From Streptomyces spinoverrucosus (lineage in GTDB: Bacteria; Actinomycetota; Actinomycetes; Streptomycetales; Streptomycetaceae): 64,000 nt of DNA. Below are positions 1,829 through 20,291 of the stretch, piece by piece. Every line of letters starts with the position of its first letter. Position 1 is the first letter of the stretch. The notes under the pieces were generated by a model. That model searched no databases. It was not told the origin of the DNA and worked only from the letters and a program-made list of their open reading frames with translations. Both the position numbers and the translations under genes were made by a program. The DNA is taken from assembly GCF_015712165.1 (NCBI RefSeq), contig NZ_JADPZX010000001.1, positions 62,001-126,000 on the forward strand. Direction: 5' to 3'.

Positions 1829-1959
1829 CACACCCCCTGCGTCACCTGGTCATCTCTACGCCACACTCTGGGCGCCACGGACCTGTGGTTCTAGGCGGAT
1901 TCAAGCTTTTCCGAAGGTTTGCCGATCTCCTCGTCTCGCCGCTGGGTACACGCGACGCT

Positions 1960-2640
1960 TCCAGACGAAATTGCAAGGTCGCAGGTCACGGCCCAGATCG
2001 ACTACGGCTTCCTCGGCGGTGGATCGACCCTCGAACCGGGAACGCCATCGGGTCTGGGCTTTCGTAATGGGCTTGCCGTGCTCGCGGCACATGTCCGTCC
2101 GCCCGGTGCTTCACCTGGACCACCCGCGTGGACGGAAGCTCACATCGCGGCCTTCCGCTACTTCGGCGGCGTCCCGCGCCCGCTCGTCCCGGACAACCTC
2201 AGGACCGGCGTCGACAATCCCGACCTCTACGACCCGAACATCAACAAAGCCTGCGCCGAACCAGCCACCCATTACGGCGCGTTGCAGCGGGCGAAGTTCG
2301 AGAAGCAGGTCACCCTGGAGGAGTTCGACTTCACCGTCGGCGAGTCGGTCATCCTCTTCGGCCCCGTCGGTGTCGGCAAGATCCACACCACATCGCCCAA
2401 ACCCTCGGCCACCTCCCGTCCGCCAGGGCGGCCGCGTACGCTTCGCCAAGCCAGCCGCGTCCTCGCTGACCTCGTCGGCGGCCACGCGGATCGCACCCGG
2501 GAGAAACGGATCCGCGAATGCGTCCGCCCCGACGCCCTCATCCTCGACGAGGGTCACATGCCGGGCCCGCAACTGCAAAGACAGCGGGCCGCGCAGGAGC
2601 TCGGCGAGGGCCTGCAGAATGTTCGAGACGGCCGGTAACT
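1960..2640 (+). pseudogene. Decayed IS21-family element (istA then istB remnants)
   Basis: Pieces of an IstA transposase and an IstB ATPase can be read, but only by moving between frames. QIDYGFLG (near 1996), WIDPRTGN (near 2025), RHRVWAFVMGLPCSRHM (near 2046) and AFRYFGGVPRPLVPDNLRTG (near 2150) are collinear IstA motifs in three frames. They run directly into an IstB segment with a damaged P-loop (FGPVGVGKI near 2358) and GGHADRTREKRIRE (near 2477). An internal deletion joins istA to istB, and several indels follow. It is not functional. It is unrelated in sequence to the intact IS21 element at 41.8-45.1 kb. Confidence 0.8.
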
Positions 2641-2698
2641 GCTTCGACCCGACCCGAACCTCGAACCGCACCCCGCGCCCTCCCCTGATCCGGGGAAA

Positions 2699-3370
2699 TC
2701 ATGGTGTGCCGGGCAGGTAGCCGGGCGCCCACCACGCAGGAGCGCATGCTACGGCCGCATCGACCATGTCGTCCTTCGTGAACGACGTGTCGTTGAGCCA
2801 TGCCTTGATGACTCCGGCGAAGCCGTGAGCCATGAACTGAGCGATGACGTTGCGGCTGGCGTCGGGAAGCTCCGGGAGGTTGCTGTGCGTCATGAACGTC
2901 AGGGCGTAGTTGCGGAAGTGGCGTACGAGCGCCTCGTAGACGCCGCTGTCGGACGGATCGCCGAGGGAGCGCCGGTAGACCGGCCCGAACCGCTCGACGT
3001 GGTCGCCCACCTCCGCAGTGGTCAAGCGCAGCAGTTCCACAGCCGAGCGCCCTTCCTGTGCCCTCTCGGCCTCCAGGCGGTGACCGCGGTCCAGGTCGGC
3101 GTAGAGAACGCTGACCAGGAGGTCCAGCGGGGTGCTGTATCGGTTGTAGAAGGTCGCTCGGGTGATGCCGGCGCGGTCGGCCAGTTCCGCGACGGTGATT
3201 TGGGAAACCGGCCGCTCAGAAGCAAGTTCCACGATGGCCCGTTCCAGGGCCTGGGTCGTCCGGGTGATGCGGGGGTCGATCCGGTCGTTCAGGGTGCTGC
3301 CCTCCTGTCGAGTACGGCGGGCACTGTGCCCCAGCTCGAGAAGCATCTCGTTGTTGTACACCACATCCAT
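2699..3370 (-). CDS. TetR-family transcriptional repressor
   Basis: The protein has 223 residues. The helix-turn-helix lies at about residues 60-79 (AELADRAGITRATFYNRY), followed by an all-helical ligand domain of normal length. No strong ribosome site precedes the ATG at 3370, so a start a few codons downstream is possible. An operator-like motif lies 25 bp upstream (3395-3418), and close copies occur near three further transcription units between 5.8 and 11.3 kb. The simplest reading is an autoregulated repressor controlling those units. Family certain; effector unknown; regulon inferred from the repeated motif. Confidence 0.92.
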   Translation of the reverse strand: MDVVYNNEMLLELGHSARRTRQEGSTLNDRIDPRITRTTQALERAIVELASERPVSQITVAELADRAGITRATFYNRYSTPLDLLVSVLYADLDRGHRLEAERAQEGRSAVELLRLTTAEVGDHVERFGPVYRRSLGDPSDSGVYEALVRHFRNYALTFMTHSNLPELPDASRNVIAQFMAHGFAGVIKAWLNDTSFTKDDMVDAAVACAPAWWAPGYLPGTP

Positions 3371-3394
3371 TGTTGCGCCAGACGGAGACCAATG

Positions 3395-3418
3395 ATTTTA
3401 TACACCTGTCAAATAGTA
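3395..3418. promoter_or_regulatory. Operator-like site A (tetR / 3489 gene promoter)
   Basis: The sequence TATACACCTGTCAAATAG is the reference copy of a motif found four times in the window. It lies between tetR (start 3370, minus) and a hypothetical gene (start 3489, plus). On the minus strand it contains TTGACA and runs into TATAAAAT, so it would overlap the tetR promoter. Partial dyad: TATACA-CC-TGTCAA. Confidence 0.6.
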
Positions 3419-3488
3419 GCGTGAGCTGCTCGACAGGCGCGCGCTGTGTGCCATAGCTGCACCGGACGCGGTACCAAGGGACCCCCTC

Positions 3489-4034
3489 ATGCCCAGCAGA
3501 CGCTGGCAAGTCACCGGCGCCTACCGCGCACTCACCGCCGCCCTTGGCCCCGGAATCCACCACATCGTCATCACGGCCCAGCCGGACGACAGCCCGAACG
3601 CACTCAGCGCGAGGGCCGTGGTCGAAGTCCCGGCCGGGGTCACGCCCGCTGTGCCGTCAGGCGAGTTCGGCGATGTGCTGGCCGAGGCCATCTGGGGCGT
3701 GCCAGGGGAAGTCATCGCCAGCACCTACGGCCCCAGCGGTAGCGGCACCTACGCGGTACGCGGGTGGTTCATCGCGGCCGGATGGTTTCACCCCATGAGC
3801 GCGGCCGAGCTCTGCAACGCCTGTCTCGTCACGGCGGACGGTCGGTGGCGTGGCTCAGGGTGCGGCGTCAGCTACGAGGACGGCCACCTGATCCCCCGGC
3901 CTTCCGGCCCGGACGGCAGTGGGCAAGGAGCTCAGCTCCACCCTCGGCGGCCGGACGAACCGCTCGGCCCGCTACGGGAAAACGCCTCCGCCCACCGCCC
4001 TGTGGGCCGTAGCCATACAGAACAAACGCCCTGA
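3489..4034 (+). CDS. Hypothetical protein, divergent from tetR
   Basis: This is a 181-residue reading frame I do not recognise. The first 145 residues look like genuine coding sequence, with balanced composition and a Cys pair near residues 109-112 (CNACL). The last 35 residues are rich in Arg, Pro and His and read like out-of-frame sequence, so a late frameshift is possible. No signal peptide or membrane segment is evident. It is divergent from tetR across operator site A, which suggests shared control. Confidence 0.5.
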   Translation: MPSRRWQVTGAYRALTAALGPGIHHIVITAQPDDSPNALSARAVVEVPAGVTPAVPSGEFGDVLAEAIWGVPGEVIASTYGPSGSGTYAVRGWFIAAGWFHPMSAAELCNACLVTADGRWRGSGCGVSYEDGHLIPRPSGPDGSGQGAQLHPRRPDEPLGPLRENASAHRPVGRSHTEQTP

Positions 4035-4090
4035 TCACAGTCTCGGCCGCTGCCCACGGCCTCGGACGGTTGACCCGAGGGGTGGGCATG

Positions 4091-5770
4091 TCAGGAAGTG
4101 AAGAGTTGCAGTTCGGAAAGCTGCGCCGCCGGCCAGCCAGTATTGGCCGTGAAGGTCAGCCTCAGGTAGCGCAGGCGGGTCTGTGGAGCCAAGGGAACGG
4201 TCACCGTGTTCCCCTGCGCAGCGTCGAAGAAGTGCGGGGTCGCCGGGGCGACAGTCCGCCACTCGTGACCGTTCGCGCTCCCTTCAACGGCGACGGTCTG
4301 CCGGCGTGCGTTCCAGTCCGCCAGCGGCGGCAGAGCCATCACCAGTCGGCGGACGTCGGCGGCAGAGCCGAGGTCTATCTCGAACCACTGTGGAAATGAG
4401 TGGTTGGCGCTCTCCCAGTAGGTCCTCACGTCTCCGTCCACCGCGTTGGAAGGGACGTAGGTCTGCGTGTGGCTGCTGCCCGTCGCCGTCTTGTGGATCG
4501 CCAGGTTCACGTCGCTCCGAGGGCGCGGGCTGAAGGACGGGGACGGGTGCTGCGACGTCGGTGTGGATGTGGGTGTGGGTATGGGTGTGCTGGATGCGGT
4601 GGTACTGGGGTGGGAGGAGGGGGTACTGGTGGCGCGCGTGGTCGGCAACGACGTGATCGCCACCGTCATGCGGGGCGGCTGAACGGGCTGGGCGATCTGA
4701 TCGGGTTGGCGGTTGTCGTCCGGCAGCACGGCGACCCCGGCTGCGACGACAGCCGCAACGACCGCGACGGCGCTCACCACCCGCCGGCCACGCCGTACCG
4801 GGGCCGCTGTCCGACGCTCAAGTCTCGGCGAGTGTGCGGCAGCGGGAAGAGCGGCGGTCATCGCCGCAGGCGCTGTCACGGCATCGGAACGAGGCGTCTG
4901 ACACTCGGGCCGTACGTGGGTGGGAGCGGTGGCGAGGTAGGCCGCGCTGCCCCACCCGAGAAGGGCGTCGGCCAGGGCGCCGCGCGGATCCTGATTCACC
5001 CGAAACAACTGGGCCACTGCCAGGGTGCAGCAGGAACAGACACTCATGTGCTGTTCCAGATCCAGACTGCGGCGCAGGTCACCTGGTTCTGTGGCGGCTT
5101 CGATGAGACGTTGGAAGCGCCCGCACGTCTGGCTGCCGTTCCGTTTCAGGTGGGCGTTCAGGTAGGCCCTGCGAATCGCCTTGTGAGCCGATGCCCGCAG
5201 CATGTCCACCGCGCTCGCCTCCACACCCAGCAGGACAGCGACCTCGGCGTCGGACTCGTCCTCGATCAGGGCATGCCACAAAACGCCCCGGGTCCGCTCG
5301 GGCAGGCTGTGGAAGGCCTCGAGCATGGCAGCGTCCTGCGGTCGCGTGCCGATGGGCCGCCGCAGCGGTCGGATGCGGAGCGGGCTGCCGGCTGCCTCGA
5401 TGCAGGCGACGAGGCCGGGAGCGAGCTGGCCGCGTCTGCTGTCCGAGGACCAGCTCACGGCGCTCTGCTGGACCAGGACAAGCAGTCGGTGGCGCCAGGC
5501 TCCCGGTGCGTTGATACCGCGGCGTATCCCGCGGATTGCCAACGTGAAGGCCCGGGCGGCCAGTTCGGCGGCCGCGCCGGAACTCCGACTGCACAGTCGG
5601 GCGTAGGCCAGTACGGCGGGAAAGTGACGGCGGCGGAACTCCTGGGCCGCCGGCATCGCGACCGCAACCCGTCCACGCATGCGCTCGACAAGATCGGCGT
5701 CGGGGAGAGTCTCCACTGACCGCAGCCGATCGGTGGCTGGATCGCCGTGGCCTGGTTCCGGCACGCGCAT
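4091..5770 (-). CDS. Sigma-like / anti-sigma-like membrane protein with C-terminal discoidin domain
   Basis: The protein has 559 residues. Residues about 27-90 resemble sigma-70 region 2, and about 150-208 resemble region 4 with a helix-turn-helix (DAEVAVLLGVEASAVDMLRA). A Cys-rich segment follows (LEQHMSVCSCCTLAVAQL, about 238), like the zinc-finger part of anti-sigma factors. A single membrane segment (about 330-350), a Ser/Thr/Pro-rich linker (about 375-420) and an F5/8 type C discoidin domain (about 420-559, with WFEIDLGSAADVRRLVM) complete it. The cytoplasmic half would be DNA- or polymerase-facing and the discoidin half extracellular and probably carbohydrate-binding. Operator site B lies 33 bp upstream of the start. 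Individual domains are fairly clear; the transmembrane signalling role is inference. Confidence 0.8.
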   Translation of the reverse strand: MRVPEPGHGDPATDRLRSVETLPDADLVERMRGRVAVAMPAAQEFRRRHFPAVLAYARLCSRSSGAAAELAARAFTLAIRGIRRGINAPGAWRHRLLVLVQQSAVSWSSDSRRGQLAPGLVACIEAAGSPLRIRPLRRPIGTRPQDAAMLEAFHSLPERTRGVLWHALIEDESDAEVAVLLGVEASAVDMLRASAHKAIRRAYLNAHLKRNGSQTCGRFQRLIEAATEPGDLRRSLDLEQHMSVCSCCTLAVAQLFRVNQDPRGALADALLGWGSAAYLATAPTHVRPECQTPRSDAVTAPAAMTAALPAAAHSPRLERRTAAPVRRGRRVVSAVAVVAAVVAAGVAVLPDDNRQPDQIAQPVQPPRMTVAITSLPTTRATSTPSSHPSTTASSTPIPTPTSTPTSQHPSPSFSPRPRSDVNLAIHKTATGSSHTQTYVPSNAVDGDVRTYWESANHSFPQWFEIDLGSAADVRRLVMALPPLADWNARRQTVAVEGSANGHEWRTVAPATPHFFDAAQGNTVTVPLAPQTRLRYLRLTFTANTGWPAAQLSELQLFTS

Positions 5771-5802
5771 GCCTCCTCATGTCCCTCGTCTTCGAGCGAC
5801 AA

Positions 5803-5822
5803 CTATTTGACAGGTGTATACT
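5803..5822. promoter_or_regulatory. Operator-like site B
   Basis: CTATTTGACAGGTGTATACT is the reverse-oriented copy of the TetR-block motif, 33 bp before the start of the sigma-like/discoidin gene (5770, minus). With site C it brackets the 375-bp divergent intergenic region 5771-6145, in which I see no credible gene. Confidence 0.6.
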
Positions 5823-6098
5823 GCCTCGGCCGTCGCGCGGCAAGCCATAGGTGACCCACCGTCCGCTCACCTACCGCGCGACCAGGGGGCTCGGCAGCTC
5901 GCGCCTGGGCGACATCACGGTCGGCGACCAAACAGGACGCACGCCACCCTTCGCGCAAGGCGCAATCGGATTCTGGGGCTCATGGCGGATGGGCGCGAAG
6001 CGGCGTCCCGACTCCCCCCGCGCGACATCCGGAAATGGATGTTTCAGGACCTGAACGAACACCCACCGACCGAACGGTCACCACGCCAATGCAATGCT

Positions 6099-6118
6099 AA
6101 TATACAGATGTCAAATAG
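6099..6118. promoter_or_regulatory. Operator-like site C
   Basis: AATATACAGATGTCAAATAG matches the motif except for two central bases. It sits 28 bp before the start of the aldo/keto reductase gene, in a position to control the five-gene cluster 6146-11144. Confidence 0.6.
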
Positions 6119-6145
6119 ATGGTTTAGCCATTAGCAGGAGCAGTC

Positions 6146-7129
6146 ATGGAACAACGAGCACTGGGCAGCCAGGGCCTGACCGTCGGCGTGCAGGGTCTTG
6201 GCTGCATGGGAATGAGCGTCTTCTACGGCACCGCGGACGAGGCCGAGTCGCTCGCCACCATCGACCGTGCGCTGGAGCTGGGTGTCACCCTGCTGGACAC
6301 AGCTGAGAGTTACGGCCCCTTCGTCAACGAGCAACTGCTCGGCAAGGCGCTGGCAGGCCGCCGGGAGGCCGCAGTCGTGGCCACCAAGACGGGCGTCGAG
6401 ATCAGCGACGACGGTCAGATGGGCGATCTCAACGGCCGGCCGGAGTATGTGCGCCGGGCGCTGGAGCGTTCGCTGCGGCATCTGGGCATGGAGTATGTCG
6501 ACCTGTACTACCTGCACCGGATCGATCCGAAGGTGCCCGTCGAGGAGACCGTCGGCGCGCTGGCCGAGTTGGTCACCGAGGGCAAGGTGCGCCACATCGG
6601 TGTGTGCGAGGCGTCCGCGAGCACGATCCGGCGTGCGCATGCCGTGCACCCTCTGACCGCGGTGCAGACCGAGTACTCGCTCTTCGAGCGCGGCATCGAG
6701 CAGGACCAAGTCCTTTCCACCCTGAAGGAGTTGGGGATCGGCCTGGTTGCCTACTCCCCGCTGGGCCGCGGATTCCTGTCGGGCGCGATCACCAGCCCGG
6801 ACGACTTCGCCGCAGACGACTGGCGCCGGACCGACCCCCGGTTCCAGGGCGAGAACTTCGGCCGCAACCTGGACGTCGTCCGCGAAGTCCGCCGTCTCGC
6901 GTCCGCCAAGGACATCACTCCCTCTCAGCTGGCGCTCGCCTGGGTTCAGCAGCAAGGCGCCGTCGGGATTCCTGGCACCAAGCGCCGCCCCTATCTGGAG
7001 GAGAACGTCGCCGCGACCGCGGTGACCCTCACCGCCGAGGACATCGCCGCGATCGAGGCGGTCGCGCCGCATGGCGTGGTCTCCGGTGACCGCTACGCGC
7101 CCGAGTTCATGGGCACGCTCAACGGCTGA
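6146..7129 (+). CDS. Aldo/keto reductase
   Basis: The protein has 327 residues, normal for an NADPH-dependent aldo/keto reductase of the TIM-barrel superfamily. The catalytic tetrad is readable as Asp51, Tyr56, Lys81 and His124 (LLDTAESYG, VATKTG, YYLHRID). The C-terminal NADPH site is also present (VGIPGTKRR). Start: ATG with AGGAG about 8 bases upstream. It is the first gene of a plus-strand cluster with metallo-hydrolase, SDR, LtrA and NAD(P)-binding genes. The role is probably reduction of reactive carbonyls or xenobiotics; the substrate is not known. Confidence 0.93.
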   Translation: MEQRALGSQGLTVGVQGLGCMGMSVFYGTADEAESLATIDRALELGVTLLDTAESYGPFVNEQLLGKALAGRREAAVVATKTGVEISDDGQMGDLNGRPEYVRRALERSLRHLGMEYVDLYYLHRIDPKVPVEETVGALAELVTEGKVRHIGVCEASASTIRRAHAVHPLTAVQTEYSLFERGIEQDQVLSTLKELGIGLVAYSPLGRGFLSGAITSPDDFAADDWRRTDPRFQGENFGRNLDVVREVRRLASAKDITPSQLALAWVQQQGAVGIPGTKRRPYLEENVAATAVTLTAEDIAAIEAVAPHGVVSGDRYAPEFMGTLNG

Positions 7130-7218
7130 GAACCGGCCCGCACCTCGGCCCCACGTTCACCGCGGGCCCAAAGCTCTCGAAATATCGCGGCTCAGGCTGT
7201 CGTACGAAAGGACGGGCC

Positions 7219-8106
7219 ATGCCCCACCTGGCCAACCGATCCCGAATCACTGTCGGCGCAACGACGATCACCTATGTTCCCGATGGATACGGCGCCCACA
7301 ATCCCGACGTCCTGTTCCCGGGAGTGGACTGGACGACGCGGCCCGGCCACCTCGAAGACGGCCGCCTCGTCCTGTCGTTCGGGTCCTTCCTGATACGCGC
7401 GGGAGACCGGAAGATCCTTGTGGATCTCGCCGCGGGCAAGATCGACGTGGACGTGCCCGGCGTCGCTCAGCTCAAGAGCGGTGCCCTTCTGCGGAGCCTC
7501 GCCGCGGAAGGGCTGTCAGCCGGCGACATCGATACGGTGGTCTACACCCACCTGCACCTCGATCACGTCGGCTGGACCAGCGACGTCGCGCCGCTCCCGA
7601 ACGCGCCCGCGGCAAAGTCGCCCACCGGCCTCACCTTCGGCCGTGCCCGCCATCTCATGTCGGAGGACGAGTGGCAGTACTGGTCGACGCGGACCGGTGA
7701 AATGGGCGGCCCGGATGCCGAGGCTGTGCTCAAACCACTCGACGGCGTCGTGGAGTTCGTCAAGAGCGGCGACGCGATCGCGCCCGGCGTCACCGTCGAG
7801 GCCACGCCGGGGCACACCCCCGGGCACCTGGCGATCGTCGTCTCGGACCCGTCGGGCGTCAGCAGCGAATCGGTCTACATCGCGGGAGACATCCTTCACT
7901 CTCCGGCGCAGATCCCCGACCCTGCCCTGGTGTTCTCCTCCGATGTCGCTCCGGACCAGGCCCGAGCGGTACGCGACCGTGTGCTCAAGCGGCCGGACAC
8001 CGTCATCGCAGCCGGGCACTTCACCGGCGGTGTGTTCGGGCGTGTCACGTCGGTGGGCGACGCGCACGTGTGGACGCCTGTCGGCGACGTGCCGCCCTCG
8101 CGGTAA
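7219..8106 (+). CDS. Metallo-beta-lactamase-fold hydrolase
   Basis: The protein has 295 residues. The zinc motif HLHLDH lies at residues 111-116, a second metal-binding His sits in GHTPGHLAIV (about 193-202), and the final GHF motif is near residue 269. This resembles lactonase-like members of the MBL superfamily rather than true beta-lactamases. It follows the aldo/keto reductase by 89 bp and probably belongs to the same transcription unit. There is no signal peptide, so it should be cytoplasmic. The substrate is unknown; a lactone or thioester is a guess from the subfamily. Confidence 0.9.
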   Translation: MPHLANRSRITVGATTITYVPDGYGAHNPDVLFPGVDWTTRPGHLEDGRLVLSFGSFLIRAGDRKILVDLAAGKIDVDVPGVAQLKSGALLRSLAAEGLSAGDIDTVVYTHLHLDHVGWTSDVAPLPNAPAAKSPTGLTFGRARHLMSEDEWQYWSTRTGEMGGPDAEAVLKPLDGVVEFVKSGDAIAPGVTVEATPGHTPGHLAIVVSDPSGVSSESVYIAGDILHSPAQIPDPALVFSSDVAPDQARAVRDRVLKRPDTVIAAGHFTGGVFGRVTSVGDAHVWTPVGDVPPSR

Positions 8107-8213
8107 CTCGGCCCAGGGCCGCCCCCATTCTTCAGAGCCGGCGGCGCCGACCGCGATCAGCACACGAGCGCGGGTCGAAGCCCCGGCGTGACCAAGTCAG
8201 GAGTCCCCACGTC

Positions 8214-9170
8214 ATGTCCGTGCCGCAGACGCCTCGTATGTTCGGGGCAAACACAACCGCCGCCGAAGTCGTCGACGGTGTCGACCTGCACGGCCGCCGG
8301 GCCGTGGTGACCGGAGCCAGTTCCGGAATCGGAGTGGAGACGGCCCGGGCGCTGGCATCGGCGGGCGCCGACGTCACCCTGGCCGTGCGGGACACTACAG
8401 CGGGCGCACGCGCGGCCGCGCGCCTTGAGGCAGAACTGCCGCCGACCTCGGGAAAGTTCACGGTGGCGCAGCTCGACCTGGCCGACCGGTCGACAGTCTC
8501 GGCGTTCGTGGCCGACTGGACGGGCCCGCTGCACATCCTGGTCTGCAATGCCGGGGTGATGGCCCTTCCGGACCTCACCCGCACCCCGGACGGCCAGGAA
8601 ACCCAGTTCGCCGTCAACCACCTCGGCCATTTCGCCCTCGCCGTAGGGCTGCACGCGACACTCGCGGCCGCAGAGGGCGCCCGGCTGGTGTCGGTGAGTT
8701 CCATCGGACACCTCTTCTCACCGGTCGTCTTCGACGACCTCGCCTACCGGTTCCGCCCCTACGACCCATGGACCTCCTACGGGCAGTCGAAGACCGCCAA
8801 CGTCCTGTTCGCCGTCGAGGCCGCCCAGCGATGGGCCGACGACGGCATCACCGCCAACGCGCTGATGCCGGGCAACGTGGCAGGTACTTCCCTGGCCCGG
8901 CACATGACCGGCGAACAGCTCTCCGCTTTCGCCGACACCACCGGGCTGGCACTGCCACCGCAGAAGACCGTCCAGCAGGGAGCAGCCACCTCGGTGCTGC
9001 TGGCGGCCTCACCGACAGTGGACGGCGTAACCGGCCGCTACTTCGAGGACTGCGCGCAGGCCGCGCCGGTCGCCCAACGCGCCGGCGCTGTCAGCGGAGT
9101 CGCACGCTACGCACTCGACCCGGACAACGCGGCCCGGCTGTGGGCCGTGTCCGACGCCCTCGTCCGGTAG
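8214..9170 (+). CDS. Short-chain dehydrogenase/reductase
   Basis: The ATG at 8214 is preceded by AGGAG (8199-8203) and gives 318 residues; upstream in-frame starts lack a ribosome site. The Rossmann motif TGASSGIG is at residues 33-40, NAG near 116-118, and the catalytic YGQSK follows a Ser-containing strand. The length and layout fit the retinol-dehydrogenase/WW-domain-oxidoreductase-like SDRs common in actinomycetes. Eight bases separate it from the LtrA gene. It is an oxidoreductase in the redox cluster; its substrate is unknown. Confidence 0.92.
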   Translation: MSVPQTPRMFGANTTAAEVVDGVDLHGRRAVVTGASSGIGVETARALASAGADVTLAVRDTTAGARAAARLEAELPPTSGKFTVAQLDLADRSTVSAFVADWTGPLHILVCNAGVMALPDLTRTPDGQETQFAVNHLGHFALAVGLHATLAAAEGARLVSVSSIGHLFSPVVFDDLAYRFRPYDPWTSYGQSKTANVLFAVEAAQRWADDGITANALMPGNVAGTSLARHMTGEQLSAFADTTGLALPPQKTVQQGAATSVLLAASPTVDGVTGRYFEDCAQAAPVAQRAGAVSGVARYALDPDNAARLWAVSDALVR

Positions 9171-9178
9171 CCGCCGGC

Positions 9179-10390
9179 ATGTCCTCACAGCATGAAGCCT
9201 GGGCCCGGCTGCGCCGACAGCTGTGGCAGCCTCCACGCGCCCACGGACAACAGCCGCAGCACCGGGTGGTCGGGCCCTTGGAGTTGTTCTACGACCTGAT
9301 CGTGGTCGTGCTGGTCGGCCAGGCCGCTCACCACTTCGCCGGACACCTCACCTGGCACGGGCTGGGCGAGTTCGCCACGGTGTTCGCCCTGGTGTGGATC
9401 GCCTGGCTCAACGGCACGCTGCACCATGACCTGCATGGTTACGACGACGCCCGGGGCCGGATCATGTTCCTGCTGCAGATCCTTGTTCTCGTCCCTCTCG
9501 GAGCGTTCATCCCCGAGGCCGGCGGCGAACGAGGAGGCGCCTTCGCCGTCAGTGCGGGAGTTCTTTTCGCCGTACTGGCATTGGTCTGGTTCCTTGCCGG
9601 ACGCGGAGGCCCGGTCGAATTTCGCACGTCCAGCCGGATGTACGTAACCGCGACGGCCGCCTGCGCGGTCGTCCTCGCGGGGAGCGCCTTCCTCCCTGCG
9701 GAAGATCGTGTGCTGGCGTGGGCGCTGCTGGCCGTCGCCTACCTTCTCGGGTTCGCGGCCGTCATAGCCAAAGTTCCTCCGGCCCAGGCGGCTGCCCTCA
9801 CCGTCACGGACGCCCTGACCGAGCGATTCGGGCTGCTCCTCATCATCGTGCTGGGCGAAACCGTCCTGGGCGTGGTCGACGGACTGGCCGAGGTGCCGAC
9901 CAGCGTCATGGGGATCGCGGTCGGGCTTGTCGCCGTCGTGGTCGGTTTCGGCGCATGGTGGACGTACTTCGACTTCGCCGGTCACCGTCAGCCCAGGCGA
10001 ACTCGCGTGGCCACCGTGCAGTGGATGATCCTGCATCTGCCCCTCACGGCAGCCGTGACCGCGATGGGGGCCGCGATGGTCACGCTCGTCGAGCACGCGC
10101 ACGACGACCGGACGCCCCCCGCGACGGCCTGGGTCCTCTGCGTGGGCGTCGGCGTGGTGCTGTGCACGACGATGCTCCTGGCGACAAGCCTGAAAGTCTG
10201 GGAACGCGACCGCGGGCTCTACCGGCCGCTTGCCTACCTCAGCGTCGCCTCGTCCCTCGTGGCCCTGGCTCTCGGCGCCGCGCGTCCGGCGCCTCTGATA
10301 TTGGGGCTCGCGCTCGTCCTTCTTCTCGGAATCCCATGGATGTTCGCCATAGCACACCGTCTCACTCAGGCGGAATCGGCCGCGGCATGA
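9179..10390 (+). CDS. LtrA-family multi-pass membrane protein
   Basis: The ATG at 9179 gives 403 residues. The family signature follows the N-terminal amphipathic stretch (PLELFYDLIVVVLVGQAAHH), then about ten to eleven hydrophobic helices, with an internal GLLLIIVLGETVLGV motif typical of the second LtrA half. LtrA (low temperature requirement A) proteins are of unknown biochemical function despite the name. The start lies 8 bases after the SDR stop, which suggests translational linkage. A second, broken paralogue lies at 19.8-20.3 kb. Confidence 0.92.
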   Translation: MSSQHEAWARLRRQLWQPPRAHGQQPQHRVVGPLELFYDLIVVVLVGQAAHHFAGHLTWHGLGEFATVFALVWIAWLNGTLHHDLHGYDDARGRIMFLLQILVLVPLGAFIPEAGGERGGAFAVSAGVLFAVLALVWFLAGRGGPVEFRTSSRMYVTATAACAVVLAGSAFLPAEDRVLAWALLAVAYLLGFAAVIAKVPPAQAAALTVTDALTERFGLLLIIVLGETVLGVVDGLAEVPTSVMGIAVGLVAVVVGFGAWWTYFDFAGHRQPRRTRVATVQWMILHLPLTAAVTAMGAAMVTLVEHAHDDRTPPATAWVLCVGVGVVLCTTMLLATSLKVWERDRGLYRPLAYLSVASSLVALALGAARPAPLILGLALVLLLGIPWMFAIAHRLTQAESAAA

Positions 10391-10448
10391 CCGCCTGCTC
10401 AGCTACAGAACCCAGCACCCTCCCACTACCTCTACCTGGAGCCCGTCT

Positions 10449-11144
10449 GTGAACGTCACTGTCTTCGGCGCGTCCGGCATGATCGGACACGGCGTACTGC
10501 GCGCCTGTCTCCTCGACCCAGCTGTCACGCGGGTCCAGGTGGTCGCCCGCAGCCCGCTCGGCATCAGCCATCCCAAGCTGCAGGAAGTCATCCACCAGGA
10601 CTTCACTGACCTGTCCCCCATCACCGGGCAACTGGCCGGTCAGGACGCCTGCTTCTACTGTCTCGGCGTCTCCTCCGCCGGCCGCGGCGAGGCCGAGTAC
10701 ACCCGCATCACCTACGACTACACGCTCGCCGCCGCACGTGCCGTCGCCGCGTCCAACCCGGCAGTGACCTTCACGTACGTCTCGGGAGAGGGCACCGACA
10801 GCAGCGAACAGGGCCGGGTCATGTGGGCCCGCGTCAAGGGCCGCACCGAGAACGCCCTGCTGGCCATGCCGATGAACGCGTACATGTTCCGTCCCGGCTA
10901 CATCCACCCCCGCAACGGAGCGGTTTCCAGGACACCGTCGTACCGCGTCCTCTACACCCTCACCTCATGGCTCTACCCACTGCTGCACCGTCTCTCCCCC
11001 GGGCACACGACGACCACCGAGCACATCGGCCGTGCCATGCTCGCCGTCACCCGACCCGGAGTGGTCGAGCAGCGGATCCTGTACAGCCGGGACATCAACC
11101 GCCTGGGCGGTGAGAGCGGGGCCTCCGCGACAAAGTCAGCCTGA
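10449..11144 (+). CDS. NAD(P)-binding epimerase-like protein
   Basis: The GTG start at 10449 gives 231 residues. The N-terminal dinucleotide motif is GASGMIG (residues 7-13). The family position of the catalytic Tyr is not the classical YxxxK; instead YVSGEGTDSSEQGRVMWARVKG (split here by description) contains a Ser/Lys pair, as in atypical NmrA/HSCARG-like SDRs. It ends the plus-strand cluster that starts at 6146, with a 58-bp gap after ltrA. It could be a redox sensor or a reductase; I cannot decide which. Confidence 0.85.
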   Translation: MNVTVFGASGMIGHGVLRACLLDPAVTRVQVVARSPLGISHPKLQEVIHQDFTDLSPITGQLAGQDACFYCLGVSSAGRGEAEYTRITYDYTLAAARAVAASNPAVTFTYVSGEGTDSSEQGRVMWARVKGRTENALLAMPMNAYMFRPGYIHPRNGAVSRTPSYRVLYTLTSWLYPLLHRLSPGHTTTTEHIGRAMLAVTRPGVVEQRILYSRDINRLGGESGASATKSA

Positions 11145-11265
11145 CCCGGGCGACGGCCTTGGGCGGTCACGGCCGGCACGGGCTGGCGTCACACTCCCAT
11201 GGGCACCGCTCGTGGGCAGGTCCGGAGCTCCACGCAACGGGGTGGACAGTCACGCGACCCGAATC

Positions 11266-11285
11266 TAATTGACAGGTGTATATTG
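11266..11285. promoter_or_regulatory. Operator-like site D
   Basis: TAATTGACAGGTGTATATTG is the fourth copy of the TetR-block motif, upstream of the PAS/SpoIIE phosphatase gene. TTGACA inside it could be a -35 hexamer. The rest of the 11145-11438 intergenic region shows no gene. Confidence 0.55.
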
Positions 11286-11438
11286 GCGCTGTAGCGCGTG
11301 ATGGCTGTGGGCTGCGGCGGTCAGCCGGTCCGGCGTCCCGGCGTCCTCGTCGCCGGCCACGACACCGCGGTCCTCCCGGCCAGCGGGCGAAAGTGCGTAT
11401 CTCACCTCCACCGGAACGACCATTACACCGGAACGACC

Positions 11439-13847
11439 ATGAGTCGCTTCAGCTCCCAAGACCCGGGATCACAGGCTCAGGCCAGGGCGTTCCTCCAGCC
11501 GCCGCCACCGGCCGGTAACGCGACCATGGTGCTGGACACCGACATGCGGTTCATCGGATGGAGCCCGGAGGCCGAGAAAATGCTGGGCTACCGCCCAGCC
11601 GAGGTTCTGGGTCAACCTGCCGGCCTGATCTTGGGAGCCCCGACCGGCACCCGTCCCCGCATCACCGGCGACAGCCTGCCGCAGAAGCCCGTGGTGTGCT
11701 CGGTGCGCCACCGTAGCGGCGATCAGGTGTCCGTGGCCCTGTCCGCCAGCCCGCTGTCCCACAGCAAGGACGGGGCAGCATGGTGTGTCACGGTGACGGA
11801 CGCGGAGCTGTTGCACCGACAATCCGTCGAGCACGCCATGCTCACCGGGATCAAAAGCCAGTCACCCCTTCTACTGATCCTCTACGACACCTCCGGCAGG
11901 GTCCGCTGGTTCAACAGCGCCACGGAGAAGCAGTTCGGGATGACGCTCGCGGAGTGCTGCGGAAGATACGCAAGCGACCTCGTTCCTGAGGGCCGACTGT
12001 TCAACGAAGACGGCCTGCTCCCGATGGCCGTGGAAGAGATCGTTCAACAGGTCGTACGGACCGGAGAACCCGCAGTCGATCTCCGCTATGAGGCTCGTAC
12101 GCGCCTCGTCCCGTCTCGTCAGGAGGCGTGGTCCTGCTCGTTCTTCAGGCTGCAAGACGACAGCGGAGAGCCGGTCGGGGTGTGCGAGACCAGCGTCAAC
12201 GTCACCGACAGACATCTGGCTCAGCAGCGCCTGGCGCTACTGAGCCGCGCGAGCGGAAGCATCGTCAGGAGCCTCGACATCCGGCACACCGCGGGTTACT
12301 TGGTAGAGCTCGTGGTCCCCGAATTCGCGGACGTCGCTACCGTGGACCTGCTGGAACCGGTACTGAACGGACATGAGCCCGAGCCGGTTCCCGGCCGTAA
12401 CGTGCCCCCCGTACTGCGCCGGGTAGCGCCTCCTTCCGACCCGACGGCCCTGGGCAACGTGGAAGCCGATGGCCTTGCCGCCGAGCGCCTGAGCTGCCTG
12501 AGGGACGCGGCAGCGGTCGCCGATCCGGCCGCCGGCACACTCATCGTTCCCTTGCAGGCCCGCGGGGTTGTCCTGGGCGTGGCCACCTTTGTGCGGGACG
12601 AATCCCGCACCCCTTTCGACCGTGAGGAGATCGCTCTCGCCGATGAACTTGTCTCCCGTACTGCGATCTGCGTGGACAACGTCCGCCGTTACGTCCTCGA
12701 GCGCGCGACTGCCCTGACGTTGCAACATGATCTTCTTCCCCGCGCTCTCCTCCCGCCGCACGGTATTGAAGTCGGGTACCGGTACCTGCCCGCAGCGGGC
12801 CCCGTCGGCGTCGGAGGGGACTGGTACGACCTGATCCCGCTCTCGGGAACACGCGTAGGACTGGTAGTGGGAGATGTCGTGGGGCACGGTATGCGGGCGG
12901 CCGCAACCATGGGGCGCCTCCGCACAACGGTCGCCGCGCTCGCAGCCCTCGACCTCGCGCCGGACGAACTGCTCGCCCGCCTGGACAACGTGGTCACCCG
13001 CGTCGGTAACCCACAGCCGACGGACTTCGAGGACGAAGACCAGGCACTGGGCGTGACCTGTCTGTACGCGATCTACGATCCGATCTCCCGGCACTGCGTC
13101 ATGGCTCGCGCAGGCCACGTGCCTCCGGTGCTGGCCACTGCCGACGGAAACGCCGAACTGGTCGATCTTCCCGCGGGACCACCGCTGGGCGTGGGTGGTC
13201 TGCCCTTCGAAAGCACCGACATCGAATTGCCCGAGAGGAGCGTGCTCGCCTTGTTCACCGACGGACTCGTCGAGAACCGCACAGAGGATATCGACGCCGG
13301 GATACACGCCCTCTGCGGCGCGCTTTCGCGGCCCGTGGACGGCCCGCTGGACGAGACCTGCGACGCCGTCGTCCGCACACTGCTGCCCCAGGCGCCCGAG
13401 GACGACGCGGCCCTCATGCTGATCCGCGCCGATGCTCTTGCCGAAGACCTGGTGGCGACATGGGACCTTGACACAGAAGCCGGGGAAGTCGCCCGGGCCC
13501 GATCACTGGCCGGCGACCAATTGCTCGAGTGGGGTATCGACGAGGCCGCCCGCTTCGTCGCCGAGCTCGTCGTCAGCGAACTGGTCACCAATGCCATCCG
13601 GTATGGCGGTGCCCCGGTCCGACTTCGACTCATCCGCATGCACAGCCTCATCATCGAGGTCTCGGACGGCGGCCTCACCTCCCCCCACCTACGGCAGGCA
13701 GCGGCCGAAGACGAGGGAGGCCGGGGCCTGTTCCTGGTCGCGCAGCTGACCCAGCGCTGGGGGACTCGCTACTCGCCACCAGGCAAGACGATCTGGACCG
13801 AGGTCTCTGCCAACGGCGCCGAAGGTGCCGAGCACCTGCGCGGCTGA
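11439..13847 (+). CDS. PAS-PAS-GAF-SpoIIE phosphatase with HATPase domain
   Basis: With the ATG at 11439 the protein has 802 residues. The frame is open further upstream to 11298, but a PAS domain starts soon after residue 28. Order: PAS (about 28-130), second PAS (about 140-255), GAF-like (about 280-420), PP2C-type SpoIIE (about 445-640; GGDWYDLIPL and VGDVVGHGMRAAATM), and an RsbW-like HATPase (about 670-795; ELVTNAIRYGG, GGRGLFLV). Such proteins sense a signal, dephosphorylate anti-anti-sigma factors and may themselves act as anti-sigma kinases. No STAS partner gene is nearby. Site D suggests control by the local TetR. Confidence 0.9.
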   Translation: MSRFSSQDPGSQAQARAFLQPPPPAGNATMVLDTDMRFIGWSPEAEKMLGYRPAEVLGQPAGLILGAPTGTRPRITGDSLPQKPVVCSVRHRSGDQVSVALSASPLSHSKDGAAWCVTVTDAELLHRQSVEHAMLTGIKSQSPLLLILYDTSGRVRWFNSATEKQFGMTLAECCGRYASDLVPEGRLFNEDGLLPMAVEEIVQQVVRTGEPAVDLRYEARTRLVPSRQEAWSCSFFRLQDDSGEPVGVCETSVNVTDRHLAQQRLALLSRASGSIVRSLDIRHTAGYLVELVVPEFADVATVDLLEPVLNGHEPEPVPGRNVPPVLRRVAPPSDPTALGNVEADGLAAERLSCLRDAAAVADPAAGTLIVPLQARGVVLGVATFVRDESRTPFDREEIALADELVSRTAICVDNVRRYVLERATALTLQHDLLPRALLPPHGIEVGYRYLPAAGPVGVGGDWYDLIPLSGTRVGLVVGDVVGHGMRAAATMGRLRTTVAALAALDLAPDELLARLDNVVTRVGNPQPTDFEDEDQALGVTCLYAIYDPISRHCVMARAGHVPPVLATADGNAELVDLPAGPPLGVGGLPFESTDIELPERSVLALFTDGLVENRTEDIDAGIHALCGALSRPVDGPLDETCDAVVRTLLPQAPEDDAALMLIRADALAEDLVATWDLDTEAGEVARARSLAGDQLLEWGIDEAARFVAELVVSELVTNAIRYGGAPVRLRLIRMHSLIIEVSDGGLTSPHLRQAAAEDEGGRGLFLVAQLTQRWGTRYSPPGKTIWTEVSANGAEGAEHLRG

Positions 13848-13988: not shown

Positions 13989-16610
13989 ATGGCCGATGTG
14001 CCGGGTGGAGTCGGGCTGATCGATCGGCACGACTTGGTCGCGACCCTGGATCTCGCCGCACGGCAGCGAGTGACGATCATCTCGGCGCCCGCGGGCAGCG
14101 GGAAAACGTCTGTGTTGCGTGCCTGGGCCGCTCAGTCGGGTCAGCAGCGCCGCATCGCGTTCGTCTCGGTCCGGGGCGGCCAGAACGACGCGCAGTTGTT
14201 CTGGCTCGATCTGATCGGCGCGATCCGTGGTGCTCTGGACGAGGGGGCGGAGCCGCCGGCTGCGTCGCCGGACTTCGACGGCACTGCCATGGTGGACCGG
14301 GTGCTCTCAGAGCTCGCCGCGACCGACGATCCCGTAACGCTGATCATCGACGATCTTCATTGGCTCAGTTCGCCGGACACCCTGGAACAACTTGGGTCGC
14401 TCCTGACCCACCTGCCCCGCCGTGCTCACGCGATCCTCGCCACCCGCCGCGATCTTCCCCTCGGGCTGCACCGGCTACGTCTCACGGGAGAGCTCGTCGA
14501 GATCCGCGGCCCACGACTGCGCTTCACCGAGGCCGAGACTCGTGCGTTGCTCGTGGCGTCCGGCTTGGACCTCCCCGACCACCTCACCGCGACACTGCAT
14601 GAACGGACCGAGGGCTGGGCCGCCGGCCTGCGGCTCGCGGCACTCTCCCTTGCCGGCCACCCGGATCCTGAGCGCTTCGTCGCCGAATTCTCGGGCAGCG
14701 AGCGCACGGTCGCCGAGTACCTCATGGCCGAAATGCTGGAGCGGCAGCCCAAGGACGTCCAGCGAATGCTGCTGCGCACTTCAGTGCTGGACCGCGTCAA
14801 CGGCGACCTCGCGGATCTGTTGACCGACTCCACCGGCTCGGAGCGGATCCTGCTGGAACTGGAGGACGCGAACGCCTTCGTCATGTCCCTCGACCCGCAA
14901 CGGAGCTGGTTCCGCTACCACCACCTGTTCGGCGGGCTCCTGAGGCTGGAACTGCGCCGGTCGCAACCCGAGGAAGTACCTGACCTGCACAGACTCGCCG
15001 CTCATTGGTTGGCGGAGCGAGCCCGCATCACCGATGCCGTCCGGCATCTGCAGGCCGCGGGTGACTGGTCCGAGGCCGCCCAGCTGCTCACCGACCATGC
15101 CCTGAGCCTGACACTCGACGGCCAGGCGGACACCATCCAGGCGCTGCTGCGTTCCTTCCCCACCAGGACGAACGAGAGCGAGCTGGCACTGGCGCAGGCG
15201 ATCGCCGATCTCGACCGGCTCCGTCTGGAGGAGGCGTCCGCCCATCTGGAGATCGCGCGGAACTATGCCAAGACCATGCCGCCGGAGCGCTGCGGCCGCC
15301 TGACCGTGGCGATCGCCTCCCTTGAGTTGCTGCTGGCCCGACTGCGCGGTCATTTCGACGGCGTGTTCGAGCAGCTGGAGGCGCTACCGACGCCCGCGAC
15401 GGGCTGGACCAACGCCGACATCGCCCTCGGGAGCGATCTGCGTGCCATCGCGCTGCTCAATCGCGGCGTCACCGAAGCGTGGTTGCTGCGGTTGTCCGAC
15501 AGCGAGCGTCATCTTGAGGAGGGCGCCGCTCTCGCCCGTGCCATCGAGCGGCCCTATCTGGAGGTCGCCTGCCTTGCCCATCTCGGTTTCGCGGCCACGA
15601 TCCACTCCTTCTCCCTGGCCCGGCAACGCTGCGAGGAGGCGATCGCAGTGGCCGCGCGGCATGGCTGGGACGACCAGCTCGTCATCGCGCCCGCGCTGGC
15701 GACACTCGCCGGGGCCAAGATCTGGATGGGTGAGTTCGACGACGGCGAACACTGGTTGGACCGCGCCACGCAGGCAGGCCGGTCGGGCGTCGAACCAGGT
15801 ATCCGACTGGTGGTGCATCTGGTCACCGGCGTGATGCACGCGGCGCGCGGTCACCTCGACCGGGCGTTGGCGGAGTTCGAAGCGGCCACGCAGGTCAACG
15901 CCCGGATGGTCGGGGAGCACGCGCTGTCGGCCCGGGTGGCGTCCTGGACCATCGCGACGCAGGCCCGACTCGGGAGGTCCGACCGGGCCCTGGCGGGGCT
16001 CGCGGCGCTCACCGACCGGCAGCGGGCCAGGGGCGAGATCCGCAACGCGCTCGCGACGCTCCGTCTGGCTGAGCATGATCCCGCCGGTGCCCGGAGCGCG
16101 CTCGCACCCGTGCTGGATGGAACCGCGCCTGTAAACCCTCATCTCACACTGATCGAAGCTCACCTCCTGGACGCCCTCGCCCACCGTGAGTTGGGCGGGG
16201 AACGCGCGGCAGGAGCGTCCGTCGAGCGGGCACTCGAACTCGCCGAGCCGGACGCACTGGTCCTCCCCTTCGCCATGACCGGTGCGTGGGAGCTGCTGGA
16301 AACGCTGCCGCTGGGAGGGAGCGCGCACCAGGCGCTGATCACCCGCATCCTCGAAGCCGTCCACGGCGCCGCCGTCTCCGTCGACACGGTCCAGGCCCAG
16401 GCCGCGCCGCTCAGCCCGAGTGAACTGCGCGTGCTGCGCTACCTGCCGACCAACCTCACACGGCAGGAGATCGCCGACGAACTGTCGGTCTCGCTGAACA
16501 CCGTCAGCACCCACATGCGCAAGATCTACACCAAGCTCGGTGTCACCGACCGCTCCGCCGCCGTGCAGCGCGGCCGTGCCCTGCGCCTCCTGTCGGCCGG
16601 CAGGGTCTGA
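13989..16610 (+). CDS. Large LuxR-family (LAL/MalT-like) regulator
   Basis: The protein has 873 residues. A P-loop lies near the N-terminus (SAPAGSGKTSVLRAW, about residues 33-48), with a Walker-B-like LIIDDLHWL at about 118-126. A long helical TPR-like middle follows, and then a C-terminal LuxR helix-turn-helix (LTRQEIADELSVSLNTVSTH, about 820-845). Start: ATG with GGAGGAGAG 8 bases upstream. MalT-like regulators bind ATP and an inducer and activate transcription. No operon partner is evident; the next gene belongs to the MarR block. Confidence 0.92.
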   Translation: MADVPGGVGLIDRHDLVATLDLAARQRVTIISAPAGSGKTSVLRAWAAQSGQQRRIAFVSVRGGQNDAQLFWLDLIGAIRGALDEGAEPPAASPDFDGTAMVDRVLSELAATDDPVTLIIDDLHWLSSPDTLEQLGSLLTHLPRRAHAILATRRDLPLGLHRLRLTGELVEIRGPRLRFTEAETRALLVASGLDLPDHLTATLHERTEGWAAGLRLAALSLAGHPDPERFVAEFSGSERTVAEYLMAEMLERQPKDVQRMLLRTSVLDRVNGDLADLLTDSTGSERILLELEDANAFVMSLDPQRSWFRYHHLFGGLLRLELRRSQPEEVPDLHRLAAHWLAERARITDAVRHLQAAGDWSEAAQLLTDHALSLTLDGQADTIQALLRSFPTRTNESELALAQAIADLDRLRLEEASAHLEIARNYAKTMPPERCGRLTVAIASLELLLARLRGHFDGVFEQLEALPTPATGWTNADIALGSDLRAIALLNRGVTEAWLLRLSDSERHLEEGAALARAIERPYLEVACLAHLGFAATIHSFSLARQRCEEAIAVAARHGWDDQLVIAPALATLAGAKIWMGEFDDGEHWLDRATQAGRSGVEPGIRLVVHLVTGVMHAARGHLDRALAEFEAATQVNARMVGEHALSARVASWTIATQARLGRSDRALAGLAALTDRQRARGEIRNALATLRLAEHDPAGARSALAPVLDGTAPVNPHLTLIEAHLLDALAHRELGGERAAGASVERALELAEPDALVLPFAMTGAWELLETLPLGGSAHQALITRILEAVHGAAVSVDTVQAQAAPLSPSELRVLRYLPTNLTRQEIADELSVSLNTVSTHMRKIYTKLGVTDRSAAVQRGRALRLLSAGRV

Positions 16611-18358: not shown

Positions 18359-18808
18359 TCATGAGGGGCTGTCAGCGATCCGGTTCATGAGAGCGGCGGC
18401 CTTGAGCAGCGTCTTGCGTTCATCTGCCCGAAGCCGCGTCCGCAGCGTTTCCTCAAGCCACGCTTCCCGGGCCGCAGGCATTGTGGCAACCAACGCCCGC
18501 CCCTTGGCAGTGGCGTCGATGAGCGTCTTACGTCGGTCGCTGGGATCCTCGCCGGCCGTTACCAGTCCGCCCGCGCGTAGGACCGCGAGTGTCTCCGCCA
18601 TTGACTGGCGACGTACATGTTCTGCGGCCGCGAGTGCACTTGTCGTCGTCGGACCTTCGTCGACCACACGCGCCAAGGTACTGATCTGTGACCAGGTCCA
18701 CCGCATGTCCTCGGGTGCCGATTCGGTACGCAACCGGGCACGCAGGCGAACCATCGCCTTCATCAACTCGACGGCGATCTCTGCTTCCGGTGTCGGTGTA
18801 CTGCCCAC
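18359..18808 (-). CDS. MarR-family transcriptional regulator
   Basis: I favour the GTG at 18808 (149 residues) over the ATG at 18844. The ATG would place its first codons inside the operator palindrome, and TACTCT lies exactly 6 bases before the GTG, the spacing of a leaderless start. A winged helix-turn-helix is visible (SALAAAEHVRRQSMAETLAV, then DPSDRRKTLIDATAKGRAL, the wing). MarR proteins are dimeric repressors released by small ligands or oxidation. No Cys remains in the shorter form. It is convergent with the MFS gene it probably represses. Confidence 0.88.
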   Translation of the reverse strand: MGSTPTPEAEIAVELMKAMVRLRARLRTESAPEDMRWTWSQISTLARVVDEGPTTTSALAAAEHVRRQSMAETLAVLRAGGLVTAGEDPSDRRKTLIDATAKGRALVATMPAAREAWLEETLRTRLRADERKTLLKAAALMNRIADSPS

Positions 18809-18828
18809 GCGGCAAGAGTAGCTGGTGG

Positions 18829-18841
18829 GCAGGCTGCCTGC
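18829..18841. promoter_or_regulatory. Single MarR operator at its own promoter
   Basis: GCAGGCTGCCTGC is a perfect palindrome of the same family as the sites at 16685 and 19711. It sits between the -35 region and TACTCT of the marR promoter, fitting autorepression. Confidence 0.65.
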
Positions 18842-18885
18842 CATTCTCGCTGCTGAGTGTCCTCGTCGGCGGGCCGGAAGAACCT

Positions 18886-18927
18886 CCAGGGCTCCGGCGT
18901 GTGTTGCAGTACACGCCGGAGCCCTGG
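18886..18927. terminator. 17-bp perfect hairpin downstream of the isochorismatase gene
   Basis: The arms at 18886-18902 and 18911-18927 are exactly complementary with an 8-base loop. It lies 38 bp after the stop of the minus-strand isochorismatase-family gene, a good factor-independent terminator candidate despite lacking a U-tract. Confidence 0.7.
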
Positions 18928-18964
18928 ACGAAGGGTGTTGTGGGGAAACCGCAGGCGCGCAGAA

Positions 18965-19525
18965 TCAGCGCGAGCCCCGCACGAGCTTGATGATCTCCTC
19001 GGTGGTGCCCGTCTCGCCCAGCATCGGGAAGATCCGCTCGACAGCGTTGTGGTGCGCCTCGGCGTTGAGGTCGGTCATGGCGTCGGTGGCCAGGGCCACG
19101 TTGTAGCCAAGCGCGTATGCGGAGCGTGCGGTGGACTCGACTCCGATGCTCGTCGCGATTCCGGCCAGAACGACCTGAGTCACCTTCCGCGACTGCAAGT
19201 AGCTGTACAGGTCGGTGCCGGGGAAGGCATCCCATGTCGTCTTGGTGACGACGTGATCGCCGGCCTCGGCCTTCATCTGCGGAACCAGTTCGGTCCAGTT
19301 GGGCGCCAGCGCCCGCGAGGACGGGGGAAGCTCATTGCGTCCCGGGGCGCCGCCTGCGACGTTGATCAGTACGACCGGCAGTCCCTGCGAGCGGAAGGCG
19401 GCGACCAGCTCAGCCGCGCGGTCGACGATTTCATGGGCGGGGTGCACGGTCGGCAGCCCCACAGTGCCTTCCTGAAGGTCGACAACCAGGAGCGCGGTCC
19501 GCGCGTCGAGGGCGGTCAGAGACAT
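18965..19525 (-). CDS. Isochorismatase-family hydrolase lacking the usual catalytic Cys
   Basis: The ATG at 19525, with AAAGG upstream, gives 186 residues. The fold motifs are clear: ALLVVDLQ (Asp16), TKTTWDAF (Lys95) and AGIATSIGVESTARSA. In most cysteine hydrolases of this superfamily the last motif carries Cys; here Gly128 takes that place, as in the true isochorismatases PhzD and EntB, which use only the acid residue. It could therefore cleave an enol ether rather than an amide. The duplicated double operator lies 180 bp upstream, so it probably belongs to the MarR regulon. Confidence 0.88.
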   Translation of the reverse strand: MSLTALDARTALLVVDLQEGTVGLPTVHPAHEIVDRAAELVAAFRSQGLPVVLINVAGGAPGRNELPPSSRALAPNWTELVPQMKAEAGDHVVTKTTWDAFPGTDLYSYLQSRKVTQVVLAGIATSIGVESTARSAYALGYNVALATDAMTDLNAEAHHNAVERIFPMLGETGTTEEIIKLVRGSR

Positions 19526-19704
19526 GCCACAACCTTTCGGAGTCAGATCGTTGGAAGTCGGCGGTGTGCATTTCGTACGGAATCCGATGCCCCCGACCGA
19601 GCGTGATCGGCTCGCGGACGCAGCTGAGTCACGCGGGCAGCCTGCCCGGATCAACCGGCTCGTGGCGCCCTGCCGGGTCTGCGCGGCCTCCTCGGGCCAA
19701 CCAG

Positions 19705-19752
19705 ATATTTAAGCAGGCTACCTGACGAAAAGATTAGCAGGCTGGCTGCCTA
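19705..19752 (-). promoter_or_regulatory. MarR double operator / promoter of the isochorismatase gene
   Basis: On the minus strand this block matches 16681-16728 almost base for base. It has two palindromes (GCAGGCTACCTGA at 19711-19723 and GCAGGCTGGCTGCC at 19735-19748) and the same TTAAAT tail. A weaker palindrome, GGGCAGCCTGCCC, follows at 19635-19647, nearer the gene. The 180-bp leader holds no gene. Confidence 0.65.
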
Positions 19753-19798
19753 TTTTTGATGCCATGCAGGGTGAGGCACGTCACCGGCGGTGGTGTCC

Positions 19799-20290: not shown

Positions 20291-20291
20291 T

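Follow-up and report, generated by a model that had tools for sequence, protein, structure and literature searches.

Local TetR regulons are known in Streptomyces. In the available part of Ahn et al. 2012 (PMC3511530), TetR genes lying less than 200 bp from a divergent neighbour are described as most likely regulating that neighbour, with the operator in the shared gap and mostly enzymes as targets. Here we describe a predicted TetR operator that occurs four times within 8 kb of DNA from Streptomyces spinoverrucosus. The window (the whole 64-kb stretch analyzed) corresponds to C1:62001-126000, the genome comprising 8.85 Mb on five contigs, and the repressor gene, at 2699, is termed tetR1. Together with its neighbours, tetR1 very probably forms a small, self-contained, local autoregulated TetR regulon, ordinary in kind and with two unusual targets. 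It is like the regulons of Ahn et al. in that tetR1 has a divergent neighbour (hypA) less than 200 bp off, an operator in the shared gap, and mostly enzyme targets; unlike those regulons, as the available part presents them, its four sites span 8 kb and include two at signalling genes, and its divergent neighbour is a near-orphan. The TetR/tetA paradigm, as summarized in the same part of that source, likewise has a palindromic operator between divergent genes, and repression by a dimer is assumed here; unlike TetR/tetA, where two operators lie in the gap, tetR1 has one site and no pump is found among the targets named by Pfam.

The operator consensus is TATACA-NN-TGTCAA-W-TAG (18 bp). Scanning the window with TATACANNTGTCAANTAG and allowing up to three mismatches gave exactly four matches, compared to a mean of 0.02 in shuffled sequence (largest shuffle count, 1). 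The first-pass annotation of this DNA had listed these four copies, with ends off by 0-2 bases, had placed them in promoter regions and had seen no further copy in the window; all four are present, each sits between named genes, and the scan bears out the absence of others. Site 1 lies 29 bp from the ATG of tetR1 and 73 bp from that of hypA. The likely start codon of tetR1 is a CTG near 3292, 107 bp from the site and behind AGGAGGGC; this candidate codon (CTGAACGACCGG, window 3280-3300, minus strand) comes ∼8 nt after AGGAGG, and many of the relatives' tetR loci show a comparable GGAGGGC...CTG arrangement. Sites 2 and 3 are 33 and 28 bp from the starts of sigF5, a gene for a sigma-like protein, and of an aldo/keto reductase (AKR) gene that heads an enzyme operon. 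Site 4 is 16 bp from the GTG, or 157 bp from the ATG, of a PAS/SpoIIE gene (Table 1).

Genome-wide, TATACANNTGTCAAW with up to two mismatches was found at 9 places, versus 7 with the reversed control; perfect matches occur only at the four window sites, with one mismatch at one place and two at four. A relaxed pattern, TATNCANNTGTMAAWTAG, gave 10 places with up to three mismatches (reversed control, 13). Five of these are perfect, and four of the five fall inside 8 kb, in the window, while the fifth (C1:4682016) stands at a paralogous TetR, TetR2. The other five all carry three mismatches, and two of them lie within the window's own cluster (C1:68097, which is site 3 read on the other strand, and C1:69272). 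Frequent occurrence at unrelated places, which the first-pass annotation had said would refute its reading, was thus not seen, because the perfect sites, five in 8.85 Mb, comprise the four window sites and the one at TetR2. A matrix trained on 15 sites taken from the tetR promoters of other loci (leaving out L063, a near-duplicate, and all home-genome sites) ranks the four window sites at the top (36.2, 36.2, 35.5 and 30.4), although this ranking is not fully independent, because the window's motif served to find the training set. The next scores in the window are 15.9 (reverse strand of site 3) and 15.3, and the top score over 20 random 64-kb sequences is 17.9. For the TetR2 site, TATGCATATGTCAAATAG, the score is 34.3.

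Evidence linking the motif to TetR1 comes from a survey of 295 genomes of the genus. A TetR at least 48% identical is encoded by 8 of these, the home genome included, with G161, in which tetR exists in broken pieces only, left out of the TetR-positive set. The motif with at most one mismatch occurs in 7 of the 295, at 13 places (reversed control, 0), and six of the motif-bearing genomes carry a TetR1-type gene with a copy directly before it. Hence the motif is present in 6 of 8 close-TetR genomes versus 1 of 287 others (Fisher p = 2e-10, counting the home genome, from which the motif was derived). Outside the home genome, 18 distinct tetR loci were compared, named database records included (L065 and L066, on the same contigs as L054 and L056, were dropped; L054 and L055 come from one genome), and 16 have a site in front of tetR with at most three mismatches. 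Most loci share a block in the tetR direction, CTATTTGACANNTGTATA, with GGAGGGC further down and then CTG or another start codon. Within the protein, the TetR_N helix-turn-helix scores 30 bits (Pfam cut-off, 24), and the recognition segment RATFYNR is invariant across 29 aligned sequences, the window's own included, picked from 120 listed. By sequence, solved structures gave four weak matches only, the best at 25 bits. The survey and the invariant segment support a prediction in which the TetR at 2699 reads the motif as its operator. The earlier naming of this protein as the binder is strengthened by retention of the site before tetR across species (6 of 7 motif genomes; 16 of 18 loci), but the binding itself we infer.

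The same comparison bears on two other explanations of the motif. It could serve the sigma-like protein (gene at 4091-5770) as a promoter element, given that the sites are near start codons and that one precedes the sigma-like gene itself. However, the orientation of the sites relative to the genes is mixed, the site also occurs where relatives' loci lack any match to sigF5, the motif is partly palindromic, and the sigma domain of sigF5 is degenerate. On the first two grounds we rejected this idea, which seems very improbable. Even more improbable is an origin of the motif as the terminal repeat of a mobile element. In its favour, sites 1 and 4 stand in inverted order at a distance of 7.9 kb, and an IS21-like remnant, below cut-off, lies to the left, but in other genomes the same sequence stands before tetR and AKR or SDR genes rather than at element ends, and this candidate was likewise discarded.

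Taken as a whole, then, the best explanation is one that we hold with good confidence from the sequence comparisons: the motif would be the TetR1 operator, through which four transcription units are repressed until a ligand releases the protein. Several observations weigh against this, including the partial dependence of the matrix ranking noted above. The dyad, TTGACA-NN-TGTATA, is imperfect and its symmetry modest, with four of six pairs matching (P = 0.04, shuffled cores); at the TetR2 site, three of six match. A consensus scan of 2600-11500 found no sigma-70-like promoter, and hence the overlap of the sites with promoter elements was judged by eye only. One genome, G239, has the motif without a TetR1-type gene, the site facing a different TetR; this is the sole such case among the 13 places and could be a chance occurrence. 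In G105 the site in the corresponding place has diverged (TATTCAAGCGTCCGATAG, score 14.6), and in G161, where tetR is broken, no site is in place. At two loci, L059 and L062, no site precedes the close AKR or SDR gene. Besides the home genome's own gene, no close sigF5 orthologue was found in 392 genomes at E 1e-65, and no operator was detected within 1.5 kb of 11 sigF5-like and 7 SpoIIE relatives (best score, 8.0). As an aside, the G239 locus (L061 9157-9192) contains two adjacent motif copies, with three and one mismatches, facing another TetR_C_8-type TetR, with a gene for an ABC transporter on the opposite side.

Table 1. Predicted operator sites and genes of the cluster (window coordinates)
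Feature	Position	Strand	Remarks
Operator site 1	3399-3416	+	gap between tetR1 and divergent hypA; matrix score 36.2
Operator site 2	5803-5820	-	in front of sigF5; matrix score 36.2
Operator site 3	6101-6118	+	in front of AKR enzyme operon; TATACAGATGTCAAATAG, one mismatch; matrix score 35.5
Operator site 4	11265-11282	-	in front of PAS/SpoIIE gene; TATACACCTGTCAATTAG; matrix score 30.4
tetR1	2699..3370	-	TetR-family repressor; PF00440; C-terminus TetR_C_8-like, below that cut-off
hypA	3489..4034	+	divergent from tetR1; near-orphan, one homologue besides itself (54% identity)
sigF5	4091..5770	-	N-terminus ECF-sigma-like but degenerate; F5/8 type C (discoidin) domain at C-terminus; layout like that of ECF52
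AKR	6146..7129	+	aldo/keto reductase; PF00248, 249 bits
MBL-fold hydrolase	7219..8106	+	metallo-beta-lactamase fold, PF00753; weakly AidB/YtnP lactonase-like
SDR oxidoreductase	8214..9170	+	PF00106
LtrA-family membrane protein	9179..10390	+	PF06772
NAD(P)-binding protein	10449..11144	+	PF13460 below cut-off (22.8 of 27.2 bits)
PAS/SpoIIE signalling protein	11298..13847	+	PAS-PAS-GAF-SpoIIE(PP2C)-HATPase_c_2 (Pfam)
MalT-like (LAL) LuxR regulator	13989..16610	+	141 bp downstream of SpoIIE gene, same strand

Beyond tetR itself, the enzyme operon is the target with counterparts elsewhere. In G122 a site, TATACAAGTGTCAAATAG, stands in front of the AKR gene and is preceded by caatgctaa, as in the window; caatgctaaTATACA is common to the site 3 region and the G122 AKR promoter. 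In two further loci (L068 and L071) the site is in front of SDR-LtrA, the SDR gene of L071 being in pieces. Thus, a site precedes AKR or SDR in three (L054, L068, L071) of the five distinct loci with a close copy of either, and these three relatives support the prediction that the AKR or SDR operon is a target. As our own gene caller takes wrong frames in places and, for example, missed the window's SDR gene, gene naming relies on tblastn and Pfam. The five-gene redox cluster of the first-pass annotation does have five genes, but the term is loose for a set that comprises a reductase, an MBL-fold hydrolase, an SDR, an LtrA membrane protein and an NAD(P)-binding protein. Against the NCBIfam AidB/YtnP-type model, the hydrolase scores 69.5 bits (cut-off, 360). 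A detoxification role for the cluster is a guess. Farther to the right (22041-24173, minus strand) lies an open reading frame resembling, by eye, the large subunit of a molybdenum-containing aldehyde/xanthine oxidase, followed by an XdhC-like one.

The two signalling genes would be less usual targets. ECF52 sigma factors such as SCO4117 combine a sigma domain with a carbohydrate-binding C-terminal portion, according to the available part of PMC5826349. The layout of sigF5 is similar, with a sigma-like N-terminus and a C-terminal discoidin-type domain (F5/8 type C, 71.7 bits in Pfam) for which sugar binding is predicted from the domain type. Unlike the ECF52 proteins as portrayed there, sigF5 lacks a Pfam hit for sigma region 2, and its region 4 falls below cut-off (Sigma70_r4_2, 20.1 bits versus 25.7); NCBIfam TIGR02983 scores 20.5 bits (cut-off, 141.55). 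With regard to the zinc finger and transmembrane segment of the ECF52 type, the sequence HMSVCSCC and a hydrophobic run were noticed by eye, and Pfam gave no zinc-finger match. At E 1e-20, 184 of 199 genomes contain looser relatives of the N-terminus, and the best homologous protein is from S. collinus (68%). The product of the other gene contains a SpoIIE domain (PF07228, 167 bits) of the SpoIIE/RsbU phosphatase type, with relatives in 90 of 199 genomes at E 1e-150, from which eight loci, including the window's own, were compared. A LAL regulator gene follows and is a possible read-through member of the same transcription unit. Beyond the right end of the window there are two more LAL copies, one at C1:137726 (64%), the other at C1:129611 (55%). 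LAL matches at E 1e-150 occur in 5 of 199 genomes including the home genome, G122 and G183 among them also having tetR1, and a Pseudofrankia locus (L070) has a 51% LAL homologue near SnoaL and a relative of tetR1.

The TetR-type operator in front of sigF5 has no counterpart at the 11 relatives compared, and since none was found near the 7 SpoIIE relatives either, sites 2 and 4 count as gains for which the home genome is, so far, the sole example. Control of sigF5 and the SpoIIE gene by TetR1 is accordingly a candidate relationship, inferred from sites in one genome. The earlier proposal that two signalling proteins are under one repressor holds to the extent that sites 2 and 4 are there, but the relatives compared do not show the same arrangement, and the single repressor is uncertain in view of a TetR1 paralogue in the same genome. 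One might argue instead that only the tetR and enzyme-operon sites work, the other two being bound without effect or having arisen without selection. This fits the finding that in relatives only the tetR and AKR/SDR classes of site are seen, and the available part of Ahn et al. (PMC3511530) describes TetR regulators that bind a gap but do not regulate divergent neighbours. On the other hand, sites 2 and 4 add two 18-bp copies that are near-perfect and stand at promoters inside the 8-kb stretch, in a genome where the sequence is otherwise found only at TetR2. The probability of their arising by chance is tiny, and we regard this alternative as unlikely.

Binding without regulation, as described in that source, also calls for caution over hypA, which by the placement of site 1 is a candidate TetR1 target. 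In relatives, the gene across the operator from tetR encodes a SnoaL-like protein (PF13577), and in the window hypA holds that place. The window does contain a SnoaL homologue (70%), at 20292-20759, with no operator before it. That gene belongs to a second, partial set of the relatives' cluster (18359-20759, minus strand), which also lacks the operator and includes a MarR gene (69% to that of G122) and a truncated LtrA gene (∼19808-20256). To the left of tetR1, the IS21-like remnant occupies 1919-2638 (plus strand), with an IstB match of 21 bits (cut-off, 24.1).

TetR2, encoded at C1:4681382-4681960, is 65% identical to TetR1 over residues 24-216, and the recognition segment TRATFYNRYSTP is the same in both proteins. 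Cross-talk between the two is therefore likely. Since they agree in this segment and very nearly in their operators, both repressors may act at the window sites, and it is conceivable, at somewhat less than even chance, that TetR2 controls these sites besides TetR1, making the two clusters one linked network. The resemblance of the proteins and the high score of the TetR2 site speak for such a network, as does the recurrence of the TetR2-cluster enzymes in G122 (81-91% identity), ∼3-7 kb from a site of the same TATGCA type, TATGCATGTGTCAAATAG, whose tetR appears broken. However, position 4 of the operator is G in both TetR2-type sites versus A in the window sites, a difference that may separate the two types, and in 6 of 8 close-TetR genomes only one close copy is found among the matches listed (10 candidates scored per genome). 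The genes beside TetR2 encode a benzoylformate decarboxylase (752 bits to 4q9d), an FMN enzyme nearest to lactate 2-monooxygenase, an SDR and a tautomerase.

Under the explanation we prefer, with TetR1 as the reader of the motif, a TetR1 dimer would bind the imperfect dyad at all four window sites. Bound TetR1 would cover the promoter or start region of each gene, which the dyad appears to overlap, and would hold down expression of tetR, the AKR-MBL-SDR-LtrA-NAD operon, sigF5 and the PAS/SpoIIE gene. Release would come from a small ligand of the carbonyl or aromatic type, which the AKR/SDR enzymes may themselves clear, and TetR2, at 4.68 Mb, which probably reads a nearly identical operator, may cross-talk. 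The ligand class, carbonyl or aromatic keto acid, is a weak and doubtful prediction made from the neighbouring enzymes, because both paralogues adjoin enzymes acting on such compounds.

We found nothing in print on this regulon in the open-access literature (subscription journals lay mostly outside the search). Among the matches listed, no paper containing a piece of the operator string is on Streptomyces by title; PMC7347384 and PMC12857756, judged by title, do not deal with such a regulon either.

A tentative idea, which we consider possible rather than probable, is that a metabolite-sensing TetR, perhaps with TetR2, recently captured sigF5 and the PAS/SpoIIE gene via operator gain, in which case carbonyl stress would reset sigma-factor signalling and clear the compound through one repressor. 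The 18-bp operator is readable across the genus and has few sites, making the targets and, through the adjacent enzymes, the ligand class of this TetR group directly testable, and the operator-repressor pair might serve as a tool. If sites 2 and 4 work, this locus would be a clear-cut example of signalling genes captured by a local metabolic repressor.

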